Shown here piece by piece: positions 28,776 through 32,727 of a stretch of 64,000 nt of DNA. The position numbers were made by a program, and so were the translations under genes. The stretch lies in assembly GCA_022560615.1 (NCBI GenBank), contig JADFSR010000008.1, positions 1 to 64,000 on the forward strand. Direction: 5' to 3'. The first letter of the stretch is position 1, and the number at the start of each line of letters is the position of its first letter. The notes below the pieces were generated by a model. That model made no database searches. It saw only the letters and a list, made by a program, of their open reading frames with translations, and was not told the origin of the DNA. Origin of the DNA: Gemmatimonadota bacterium. Its GTDB lineage: Bacteria; Gemmatimonadota; Gemmatimonadetes; Longimicrobiales; Gaopeijiaceae.

Positions 28776-30410
28776 CTAGTCGTCGTCGGTGGAGCGACCG
28801 CCACCGTCGAGGTCATCGCTTGCTTCGAGATCCGCCGGCGCCGGTACGATCAGTACGCTCGAGCCCGGCTCGACAACGGCGCCCACGGTCTGCGTCGGCG
28901 CAGCGGCCTCCACTCGTTCGAGAACCGCGTTCACGCTCGGTTCCATGCGCTCCAGTAGCGGAGTGGGGTTCCAGCCGATCCAGATCATCAGCGCGCACAG
29001 AGGAGCCAAGATCGCCATCTCACGCCGCGACAGGTCTTTCATCTCGCGGTTCTCCGGCTTGTCGAGCGCGTTGAAAAAGATCTTCTGGACCATCGGCAGC
29101 ATGTAGTACGCCGCAAAGATCACGCCGAAGGTCGCGACTACCGCGATGGTAGGGTGCGTCTCGAACGCCCCGAGCAATACCAGGAACTCGCCTACGAAGC
29201 CGCTGGTCCCGGGCAAACCGATCGATGCGAGCGCGGTGAGCACGAATACGGTCGCGAAGAGCGGAGCCACGCGGCCGATGCCCCCGAAGTCCTCGATCTT
29301 CCTGGTGTGGCGGCGCTCGTACAGCATGCCGAGCAGTAGGAAGAGCGCGCCCGTGCTGATGCCGTGCGAGATCATCACGATGAGGCCACCCTGCAAACCG
29401 TTCACCGTGAGCGCGAAGACGCCGAGCACGACGAAGCCCATGTGCGCCACCGATGTGTACGCGACGAGCTTCTTCGCGTCGGGCTGCACGGCAGCGACCC
29501 AAGCGGTGTAGATGATGCCGATCACCGCGAGCACGAGCATCACGGACACCACGGTCGTGTGCTGCGCCGCTACCGGGAAGAGCGGCAGCAGAAACCGGAG
29601 GAATCCGTACGTGCCCATCTTCAGAAGCACCGCGGCCAGAACCACTGAGCCCGGCGTCGGTGCTTCGACGTGGGCGTCCGGAAGCCAAGTGTGCAGCGGA
29701 AAGACAGGCACCTTCACGCTGAACGCCAGCGCGAAGGCCGTGAAGAGCCAGAGCTGCTCGGTCACCGTGAGCGGCACCTGGAGCATGTCGGCGTATGCGA
29801 AGGTCGGGATGCCCAGCAGCATCTTCGCCTTGTAAGCCATGTAGAGGATCCCGACCAGCATCAGCAGAGATCCGAACGCCGTGAACAGGAAGAACTTGAT
29901 CGCCGCGTATATGCGGCGCTCCCCGCCCCACACACCCACGATGAAATACATGGGGACGAGCGTGAGCTCGAAGAACACGTAGAAGAGGAGGAGGTCGGTG
30001 GCGACGAAGACGCCGACCACACCCGCTTGTAGAAGCAGCATCAGCGCATAGAACGCGCGCTGCCGCTCCTGGATGTAGTTGAAGGACCCGAGGATCGCGA
30101 TCGCGCTGGTGAACGTCGTCAGCATCACCATGAAGAGGCTGATGCCATCGATCCCGAGCGAATAACTCACGCCCCACGTCTCGATCCACGGGGTAGTGCT
30201 CACCATCTGCATGCCGCCATACGTCGGGTCGAACGCCCACCACAGGCCGAGGCTCAGAACCATCACGCCCATCGACCACCAAAACGCCACCTTCTTGGCC
30301 GTTTCCTCCTCAGCCCAGAGCACGAGCCCCACACCCATGACGGGCAACCAGATGAGCGCGTGCAGCACCCACCCTGTATAGCCGATCGATTCGAGCATTG
30401 AAGTCATCAT
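28776..30410 (-). CDS. nuoM: NADH-quinone oxidoreductase subunit M
   Basis: A 544-residue antiporter-like subunit with about 14 helices. Conserved blocks are GIDGISLFMVMLTTF, VFFELTLVPMYFIVG, KVPVFPLHTWLPDAHVEAPT and KKLVAYTSVAHMGFV. It carries a proton channel of complex I. AGGA lies 9 bases before ATG 30410, at the foot of the structured nuoL-nuoM spacer. The acidic C-terminal tail ends DLDGGGRSTDDD. Confidence 0.96.
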   Translation of the reverse strand: MMTSMLESIGYTGWVLHALIWLPVMGVGLVLWAEEETAKKVAFWWSMGVMVLSLGLWWAFDPTYGGMQMVSTTPWIETWGVSYSLGIDGISLFMVMLTTFTSAIAILGSFNYIQERQRAFYALMLLLQAGVVGVFVATDLLLFYVFFELTLVPMYFIVGVWGGERRIYAAIKFFLFTAFGSLLMLVGILYMAYKAKMLLGIPTFAYADMLQVPLTVTEQLWLFTAFALAFSVKVPVFPLHTWLPDAHVEAPTPGSVVLAAVLLKMGTYGFLRFLLPLFPVAAQHTTVVSVMLVLAVIGIIYTAWVAAVQPDAKKLVAYTSVAHMGFVVLGVFALTVNGLQGGLIVMISHGISTGALFLLLGMLYERRHTRKIEDFGGIGRVAPLFATVFVLTALASIGLPGTSGFVGEFLVLLGAFETHPTIAVVATFGVIFAAYYMLPMVQKIFFNALDKPENREMKDLSRREMAILAPLCALMIWIGWNPTPLLERMEPSVNAVLERVEAAAPTQTVGAVVEPGSSVLIVPAPADLEASDDLDGGGRSTDDD

Positions 30411-30424
30411 GGCTGACCGTCCTG

Positions 30425-30565
30425 AGACCGCTCAAAACGGATGGATGGCAAGGAACGGGAGCACGGGGAGTGAGGCGTACCGAACGGTACGTCGCAGCGA
30501 CCCGCGCGGACCGTGACGCGGGGTACCCGCGCTGAAAGCGTGGGTCGCGCCGTTTTCAGCGGTCT
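30425..30565. repeat. Structured inverted-repeat element between nuoL and nuoM
   Basis: The arms AGACCGCTCAAAACGG (30425-30440) and CCGTTTTCAGCGGTCT (30550-30565) are inverted repeats, 15 of 16 paired. Nested inside are GCGACCCGCGC (30497-30507) with GCGTGGGTCGC (30538-30548), and the palindromic GTACCGAACGGTAC (30477-30490). The whole 160-base spacer is the only large gap inside the nuo operon. It has no open frame of its own. Confidence 0.75.
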
Positions 30566-30570
30566 ATCCA

Positions 30571-32727
30571 TCAGAAGATCGAGACGCCGAGGATGACTAG
30601 GACGCCGACGGTGAGAATGAATGCGTACGTGTTCACGGTCCCCGTCTGGAACATGCTGGCGACGAAGCCCAAGCCTCGCGCCGTCCAGCCGACACCGTTC
30701 ACGACGCCGTCGATGATCCCCACGTCGATCACCTTCCAGCAGAACCGGGATAGCGCCAGAACCGGCTGAACGATGACGCGGTCGTAGAGCTCGTCCACGT
30801 ACCACTTGTTGTAGAGCACTTTGGCGAAGCCGGTCGGCTCGACGTCGTCCGCAGCCGGCACGACCTTCTGGCCGACGACGAAGCGGAACGAGGCGAAGAC
30901 GACGGCGAGCGCAGCTACACCTGAGAGAACGGCCCAGACGACTTCGCCGCCACCGATAGGCGCGGTCACGGCAAGCGCACCGAGGTTGACCTCCTGGATG
31001 CGCTGCGCCTGCTCCGTGATCGGATGCAGCCATTCGTGGAGCCAGCCGCTGGTCAGCGGCCCGAGGCCAAGTAGCGTATCTCGGATGTGCTCAGAAACGT
31101 TCACCCATCCGCCGACCGCGGCGAGCACAGCCAGCACCGCGAGCGGCGCCCACATGACCGCAGGCGCCTCGTGCAGCGTCTTCTCCTCTTCGCCCCCCGT
31201 GCGGTTCTCACCGTGGAAAGTCATGACCATCATGCGGGTCATGTAGAACGCCGTGAGCATCGCCGTGGCGAGCGCGATCATCCAGTACACCGTGTAGAGC
31301 GTCGGATAGGGGGCGCTGGCCGCGCCACCGAATGCGGCGGTCTGCCAGATGATCTCGTCCTTCGAGAAGAAGCCGGCGAACGGCCAGATGCCGGCGATCG
31401 CGAGGGTCGCGATCCACATGGTCGCGCACGTGATCGGCATGTGCTTCTTCAGCCCACCCATGTTTCGCATGTCCTGCGCATCTTCGTGGCTGTGCGTGCT
31501 GTGATACGCACCGTGCATCGAGTGGATCACGGCACCCGCGCCGAGGAAAAGCAGAGCCTTGAAGAACGCGTGCGTCATCAGATGGAAGATGCCCGCGCTG
31601 TACGCTCCGACCCCGACGGCGACGAACATGTAGCCGAGCTGAGAGACCGTGGAGTACGCGAGCACCTTCTTGATGTCGTTCTGCTTGAGCGCGATCGTCG
31701 CAGCGAAGAGCGCGGTCAAGACGCCGACGCCTGCGACCGTCGCGCTAGCGATCGGCGAGAGCGCGAAGAGCACCGCCGAGCGCGCGACGAGGTACACGCC
31801 GGCCGTGACCATGGTAGCCGCGTGGATGAGGGCGGAGACCGGCGTCGGGCCTGCCATCGCGTCGGGCAACCAAACGTAGAGCGGCATCTGAGCGCTCTTG
31901 CCCGCGGCGCCCAAGAAAAAGAAGAGCGTGATCGCCGTGACGAGCCCACCGCCGTAGACGAGCGCTCCTTCGGCTCCCGCAAAGACCGGCACGAAATCCA
32001 ACGTACCGAACGTCGTGAACAGGAAGAACATCGCGACCAGGAAGCCGAGGTCGCCGATGCGATTGACGATGAACGCCTTCTTGCCCGCGTCCGACTTCTC
32101 GCGGTCACTGAACCAGAATCCGATCAGCAGGTACGAGCACAGCCCAACACCTTCCCAGCCCACGAACATGAGCGGGTAGCTCGAGCCCATCACGAGCACG
32201 AGCATGAAGAAGATGAAGAGGTTCAGGTAGGCGAAGTAGCGGGGATAACCCGGATCATCCTTCATGTAGCCGACGCTGAACACGTGGATCAGCAAGCCCA
32301 CGCCCGTGACGATCATCATCATGATCATCGAGAGCTGATCGAGCTGGAGCGCGGCATCGACCGTGAGGGTGCCCGTCGCCATCCAGGTCCAGTAGGTGAC
32401 GACCACCGGCGCTTCGAGATGCGCGCCCAACATGCGCACGAAGTTCACGAGCGTGATAAGGAACGCCAGCAGCAACACACCCGGGCCGATCAGACTCGGG
32501 AGCGTGTGCGTCAACGGCCGACCGCCCTCGTCGAGGTCGAGCTCACCACCGGCGCGAACCGCGTCCGCGGACACGTTCGCGTGCAGGAGCGCCAGAATCC
32601 CGTTGATGATGAAGCCGATCAGCGGGAGCAGCACGATCCAACCCAGCAGGAACGGCTCGAAGTGTGCGGCGCTCTCCGCGGCGTCCGGACCGCCCTGGAA
32701 CAGCATCACTGCCAAGGAAGCGTGCAC
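30571..32727 (-). CDS. nuoL: NADH-quinone oxidoreductase subunit L
   Basis: A 718-residue subunit, the largest antiporter-like one. Blocks seen: LQLDQLSMIMMMIVTGVG, FVGWEGVGLCSYLLIGFW, GKSAQMPLYVWLPDAMAGPTPVSALIHAATMV and the histidine-rich GAVIHSMHGAYHSTHSHED. The C-terminus has the long lateral-helix region (residues about 600-718) including FAKVLYNKWYVDELYDRV. It starts 4 bases after nuoK. Confidence 0.96.
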   Translation of the reverse strand: MHASLAVMLFQGGPDAAESAAHFEPFLLGWIVLLPLIGFIINGILALLHANVSADAVRAGGELDLDEGGRPLTHTLPSLIGPGVLLLAFLITLVNFVRMLGAHLEAPVVVTYWTWMATGTLTVDAALQLDQLSMIMMMIVTGVGLLIHVFSVGYMKDDPGYPRYFAYLNLFIFFMLVLVMGSSYPLMFVGWEGVGLCSYLLIGFWFSDREKSDAGKKAFIVNRIGDLGFLVAMFFLFTTFGTLDFVPVFAGAEGALVYGGGLVTAITLFFFLGAAGKSAQMPLYVWLPDAMAGPTPVSALIHAATMVTAGVYLVARSAVLFALSPIASATVAGVGVLTALFAATIALKQNDIKKVLAYSTVSQLGYMFVAVGVGAYSAGIFHLMTHAFFKALLFLGAGAVIHSMHGAYHSTHSHEDAQDMRNMGGLKKHMPITCATMWIATLAIAGIWPFAGFFSKDEIIWQTAAFGGAASAPYPTLYTVYWMIALATAMLTAFYMTRMMVMTFHGENRTGGEEEKTLHEAPAVMWAPLAVLAVLAAVGGWVNVSEHIRDTLLGLGPLTSGWLHEWLHPITEQAQRIQEVNLGALAVTAPIGGGEVVWAVLSGVAALAVVFASFRFVVGQKVVPAADDVEPTGFAKVLYNKWYVDELYDRVIVQPVLALSRFCWKVIDVGIIDGVVNGVGWTARGLGFVASMFQTGTVNTYAFILTVGVLVILGVSIF

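Follow-up and report, generated by a model that had tools for sequence, protein, structure and literature searches.

The nuoL-nuoM spacer

In the genome of the Gemmatimonadota bacterium studied here (assembly GCA_022560615.1, contig JADFSR010000008.1), a gap of 160 nt lies between the genes nuoL and nuoM. Elsewhere between nuoG and nuoN, the junctions measure 4, 12, -4, -4, 4, and -41 nt (the start of nuoJ used for these lengths being a codon-usage gene call), which confirms that this gap is an outlier. The features of this junction lie in the window, i.e. the whole stretch of 64,000 nucleotides that was analysed; their coordinates are listed in Table 1. A reading made from the sequence alone had noted nested inverted repeats in the spacer, with an outer arm adjacent to the AGGA of nuoM. 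Both observations were reproduced: the outer arms are 94% complementary over 16 nt, and the 3' outer arm ends 1 nt from the AGGA. The 14-base palindrome noted at the same time has arms of 6 nt each and a loop of 2 nt. No Rfam family reached its gathering score within the window, and none was found at E <= 1 when four element loci were searched.

Table 1. Features of the nuoL-nuoM junction (window coordinates).
Feature	Position	Strand or length	Basis or remark
nuoL, upstream gene	30571-32727	minus	Pfam-confirmed (Proton_antipo_M/N)
nuoL stop codon TGA, adjoined by the element	30571-30573	minus	sequence
Palindromic mobile element, very probably ERIC-like	30425-30565	minus, sense to nuo operon	model R1 match 30422-30568
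5' outer arm, AGACCGCTGAAAACGG on minus strand	30550-30565	minus	begins 5 nt past nuoL stop codon
Nested REP-like hairpin unit	30517-30550	minus	23 further genome matches; absent from C3 and C10 copies
Inner arms	30497-30507 / 30538-30548	11 nt each	91% complementary
Conserved core hairpin TGCGA-stem-CCTC	30471-30496	minus	most conserved part of the family, common to ERIC
3' outer arm, CCGTTTTGAGCGGTCT on minus strand	30425-30440	minus	arm search
AGGA, presumed nuoM ribosome-binding site	30420-30423	minus	just beyond 3' outer arm
nuoM, downstream gene	28776-30410	minus	Pfam-confirmed

Copies elsewhere and empty sites show that an element has entered the nuo operon in sense, at the nuoL 3' end. 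The spacer very probably holds a non-autonomous palindromic mobile element of about 125 nt that belongs to an ERIC-like superfamily and has been enlarged to 141 nt by the nested REP-like hairpin. ERIC itself is described, in excerpts of PMC2229807, PMC10969869, and PMC2759123, as a mobile palindrome 127 bp long that occurs in Enterobacteriaceae and Vibrionaceae.

Copies, empty sites, and the family in Gemmatimonadota

With the spacer as query, a search of its own genome led to a copy on C3, which has the arms and the middle in common with it; the C3 copy, used as query in turn, led to a third copy on C10. One of these two further full copies lies at the rpmD-rplO junction. Model R1, which was built from four close copies, matched the genome in exactly three places (C8, C3, and C10). 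The broader model R2, which was built from 33 Gemmatimonadota copies and no ERIC, found the same three plus two weak matches. The existence of further copies means that the element is not specific to nuoL-nuoM.

The spacer query also matched 23 places with its inner part only (query positions 32-69), which is a short REP-like hairpin. It is this hairpin, nested in the 5' arm, that makes the window copy larger than those on C3 and C10. The hairpin resembles REP/BIME units in being a short dispersed palindrome. These are much shorter than the element, the REP-like part is not the element body, and a search for Y1_Tnp yielded no RAYT-type Y1 transposase in this genome. In places (e.g. L009-L012, L014-L016, L018, and L020-L023), the REP-like palindrome (GACCCACGC..GCGTGGGTGCCC) lies within a larger composite that carries a GACGAGGAGTCGTAGC motif. 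A separate palindromic family (GTTACGGTG...CACCGTAAC) occurs in the window genome and in G014 (L017, L027, and L194).

The congener G001 lacks the element at each of the three sites: its nuoL-nuoM junction is a TGATG overlap, 15 nt separate rpmD from rplO, and the site corresponding to C10 measures about 17 nt. The rpmD-rplO junction is filled in G014 and empty in its congener G304. The nuoL-nuoM junction is filled in G304 and G019 and empty in G014, which has a 9-nt spacer there; at nuoI-nuoJ, element copies are present in G014 and G019. Among the 13 copies compared, mutual best matches were found between the nuoL-nuoM copies of the window genome and G304 (84%) and between the rpmD copies of the window genome and G014 (86%). 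The nuoL-nuoM copy of G019 is only 70% like the window copy. This sequence pattern suggests that the insertions are old and polymorphic, and that at least one further insertion into nuoL-nuoM happened separately. A small non-autonomous mobile element had been the second choice of the sequence-only reading, which proposed a genome search for further copies; the two copies found, the empty sites in congeners, and the homology to a known mobile family all speak in its favour. The element is short and non-coding, has inverted repeats, and occurs in several copies with filled and empty sites, as is typical of MITEs.

R1 matches (E <= 0.01) were obtained in 13 of 59 relatives, the window genome included, and R2 matches (E <= 0.001) in 27 of 298 Gemmatimonadota genomes. 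The copy number reaches about 24 in G011, where tandem arrays occur (L198, L200, L202, and L204); their units are spaced by about 133-146 nt, and in some of them the arms are mismatched within the unit. In 33 diverse copies (alignment A5), the length is 121-130 nt, which corresponds to the imperfect palindrome of about 127 bp that characterizes ERIC. An AT-richer branch was observed in another class of the phylum (L241, L243, and L246 from G063, G064, and G061). G063 and G064 hold 10-11 copies apiece; the gene caller was not trained for this composition, which limits the reading of placement there. Weak, shorter relatives of about 105 nt with ATTCGG/CTCGG ends (L227 on C1 of the window genome and L248 in G249) possibly represent a further subfamily.

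The 33 copies were further analysed for covariation. In the consensus structure 89.8% of the cells are paired, compared to 67.9% in shuffled and 36-43% in slid controls; these counts are inflated by relatedness, which the slid control retains. Changes on both sides were found in 24 of the 28 pairs. Upkeep of the palindrome at the DNA level would yield the same signal. On the sense strand G.U exceeds A.C by 62:18 overall and by 27:16 (p 0.13) if two columns are left out, and the antisense strand is predicted to be the more stable one in 27 of the 33 copies. These figures make selection at the RNA level on the sense strand unconvincing. The outermost 10 nt or so of the arms vary widely between the copies of A3 and A6 and are nevertheless complementary within most of them. 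Both compensatory drift and a remaking of the arms upon insertion are possible explanations of this variation.

Placement at gene 3' ends and possible role

Genes around the copies were called by codon usage, with a simple caller for which the window served as training sequence. R2 gave 109 matches, and these were reduced to 81 elements by omitting nine that were weak and by merging tandem copies. In 52 of these, a co-directional upstream stop codon lies -13 to +8 nt from the 5' end of the element; a convergent stop codon equally near the 3' end was found once, in an element that also belongs to the 52. For 65 elements the closest upstream gene called runs in the same direction, for 12 it runs in the opposite one, and for four there is no such gene. 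Of the remaining 29, two lie after rpmD, a gene overlooked by the caller, and six follow the 3' end of a tRNA at -3 to +1 nt. Altogether, the 5' end is set against a gene end in 60 of 81 elements, and 21 are without such a neighbour. The 23 REP-like hairpin matches, which served as a control, show no such placement rule. Five of the six tRNA cases concern tRNA-Leu(GAG) and are not independent, because they belong to similar large tRNA arrays. In these loci (L157, L175, L177, L197, and L234 from G013, G007, and G037), 15-17 tRNAs are packed into 3 kb, and the element directly follows tRNA-Leu(GAG) in all five. The tRNA cases imply that translation termination cannot be the whole rule; the common factor is the gene 3' end.

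A pattern search of the viral collection identified 17 stretches, and other patterns scanned over this collection gave none. All ten distinct full copies in the collection start -17 to +4 nt from the end of an upstream open frame. Many of the viral elements (L299-L315) have arms of the type TGATGGCTTC(G/T)(T/C)AAAAAG, with several copies in some contigs. One element lies directly past the gene of a terminase small subunit, and one element-bearing contig encodes a terminase, RecT, and an exonuclease. Searches by blastn of plasmids with L153, L163, and L246 and of phages with L246 yielded no real matches.

In the nuo mRNA, the element is predicted to form a long, almost fully paired rod that starts at the nuoL stop codon. 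Such a rod would be tolerated in the polycistronic message because it hides itself. A ribosome that terminates nuoL at the base of the rod would open the outer stem, as has been proposed for ERICs that lie in sense beside stop codons, and the junction could thereby act as a processing or stability switch between nuoL and nuoM. The movement of the element would be brought about by a helper that is encoded elsewhere than in the element. The protection of a processed mRNA end, which the sequence-only reading had considered, or mRNA processing is possible: it would fit both the placement at gene 3' ends and published work on ERIC, including regulatory work in Yersinia (PMC2229807 and PMC10969869); ERIC is described as affecting mRNA decay through RNase E in an orientation-dependent manner (PMC2229807, PMC10969869, and PMC2759123). 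We tentatively regard an ERIC-type processing or stability switch as the most likely mode of working, with a mere passenger being nearly as likely.

As a passenger, the palindrome would be selfish and merely tolerated at gene ends, since elsewhere it would break genes or promoters. The patchy presence among congeners, the bursts in copy number with the tandem arrays of G011, and the occurrence in phage gene clusters make this explanation a serious contender, albeit one that falls short of an even chance. However, tolerance alone predicts any intergenic position in either orientation, which does not agree with 5' ends pressed to gene ends and a convergent stop codon near the 3' end in a single case.

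Relation to ERIC and remaining alternatives

The relation to ERIC was assessed with R1, with R2, and with a third model, R3, built from 15 ERICs; real ERICs for these tests were fetched by means of the ERIC copy printed in PMC2759123. The narrow model R1 found none of the ERICs. R2 covered the ERIC in seven of eight ERIC loci, always in the same orientation, and missed that of L224. Only two of these matches lie below E 0.05 (6.5e-4 and 0.022), the best one being 6.5e-4 in 10.6 kb, and R2 also gave chance-level matches elsewhere in the short loci. In a Proteus record of 4.08 Mb, R2 produced a single match at E <= 10 (9.8e-4), which blastn identified as an ERIC. Two matches were obtained in a Salmonella record of 728 kb, one being an unmistakable ERIC (83% over 124 nt) and the other an ERIC-like copy that matches over 22-51 nt, and none in two Rahnella records known to hold ERICs. 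Conversely, R3 was applied to 50 fetched loci (174 kb; 46 from Gemmatimonadota and four from the viral collection). It gave five matches at E <= 10, ranging from 0.0013 to 0.73, and all five span elements defined by R2 over their full length, with matching orientation; 45 loci, among them the three copies of the window genome, were without a match. Judged from these sequence comparisons, the sensitivity is low, but every match in the whole records and with R3 falls where descent predicts it. The relationship to ERIC is seen at the profile level only.

The element shares with ERIC (also named IRU or RU-1) a length of about 125-127 nt, the long imperfect palindrome, a core hairpin with an asymmetric loop (TCA or TGCGA opposite CTCC or CCTC), a right half of the type GCCGCCTTcCTGCA, and the reciprocal model matches. 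Both are intergenic and often located within operons and beside stop codons. ERICs that adjoin or overlap stop codons reportedly favour one orientation (De Gregorio 2005), and the element does likewise, with 52 of 81 copies in sense within -13 to +8 nt of a stop codon. It is almost always in sense, whereas both orientations were seen among the few ERICs inspected. Further differences are the GC-rich sequence, the arms of different sequence, and the host: ERIC is assigned to Enterobacteriaceae or Vibrionaceae in excerpts of PMC10969869, whereas the element resides in another phylum, Gemmatimonadota, and also in contigs of the viral collection. Excerpts of PMC2229807 and PMC2759123 describe TA at the ERIC termini and duplication of a TA target. 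The window copy has the ends AGACC...GGTCT, with TA on the left only, and no TA target duplication was seen at the empty sites compared. TA targeting was also rejected as an explanation of the docking stop codons, which are TGA in 29, TAG in 18, and TAA in five cases and match the background of 98:46:13. Because TA termini and TA duplication are lacking and the host range differs, we call the element ERIC-like and not ERIC. No report of ERIC or of small repeats in Gemmatimonadota was found in the open-licence literature searched.

A convergence of GC-rich palindromes in place of shared descent could explain why single R2 matches to ERICs are weak, why R1 misses ERICs, and why plasmid blastn with two copies led to chance-level matches or none. 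Convergence is nevertheless unlikely. A palindrome should match either strand, but the seven matched ERICs all have the same orientation; moreover, the Proteus and Salmonella records gave matches to ERIC or ERIC-like sequences only, and the R3 matches all fall on elements.

Given an ERIC-like element, ERIC may be merely the enterobacterial branch of an old superfamily that spans Gemmatimonadota, Geobacter-type bacteria, and phages. Movement of this superfamily would then be linked to the 3' ends of genes, with docking in sense on a stop codon of any type or on a tRNA 3' end. This generalization is possible, if rather doubtful. If true, it would imply that insertion follows an undescribed route, which might involve the ends of transcripts or the corresponding DNA, and not the action of a common TA-targeting transposase. 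ERICs have been targets for fingerprinting for decades. Relatives in a distant phylum with a sharp placement rule offer a new comparative handle, by which shared ends, shared hosts, or a shared helper gene could be looked for across phyla.

Among other known families, Geobacter metallireducens has 24 short intergenic "RNA elements" with the central palindrome GRCGTAGCGCTGCTACGCC, and similar sequences occur in Desulfotalea, according to excerpts of PMC2700814. The likeness, drawn from the caption of Additional File 4, lies in the intergenic position and in GRCGTAGCGCTGCTACGCC, which equals the core of the element; the caption stresses gene 5' regions and contains no mention of ERIC (PMC2700814). 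YPAL/RU-2, RUP, and Correia/NEMIS are likewise small non-autonomous palindromic elements and are set apart by their other lengths and properties, as described in parts of the review PMC2229807.

The sequence-only reading had favoured a role for folding in nuoM translation. The minus-strand RNA of the element has a predicted folding energy of -66.8 kcal/mol, compared to a mean of -49.0 for shuffled sequences (z -5.05; none of 200 shuffles was as good); with flanks included, z is -2.62. The strong fold at an operon junction, the arm that ends beside the AGGA, and the persistence of the copy suggested by the mutual best match with G304 could be taken for a locus-specific RNA element that sets nuoM translation or the nuoL/nuoM stoichiometry and is kept at the junction by selection. 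This is very improbable. Among 80 relatives examined, the nuoL-nuoM spacer was computed for 68 and mostly measures -4 to 17 nt; the junctions of G001 and G014 are overlapping or short as well, and the same element is found at unrelated genes. A locus-specific riboregulator was rejected on account of this poor conservation and of the copies elsewhere. Occlusion of the Shine-Dalgarno sequence was likewise discarded, since folding predicts the AGGA to be mostly paired with or without the element, and control of nuoM translation finds no backing in the mostly short or overlapping junctions. Strong folds at operon junctions in such genomes may accordingly not be locus-specific regulators.

An attC-like integron recombination site, likewise a palindrome with variable but complementary arms just past stop codons and in sense, is most unlikely, given that inspection by eye shows no attC core sites RYYYAAC and GTTRRRY flanking the arms and that housekeeping junctions and tRNA 3' ends, not cassette arrays, are where the copies occur. 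In one further locus (L036, 5166-5607, OFTM400), the nuoL-nuoM spacer extends over 441 nt and contains the element and, after it, several repeat units of the CGCCTTCGGCGACGCTGCGGGTCGG type.
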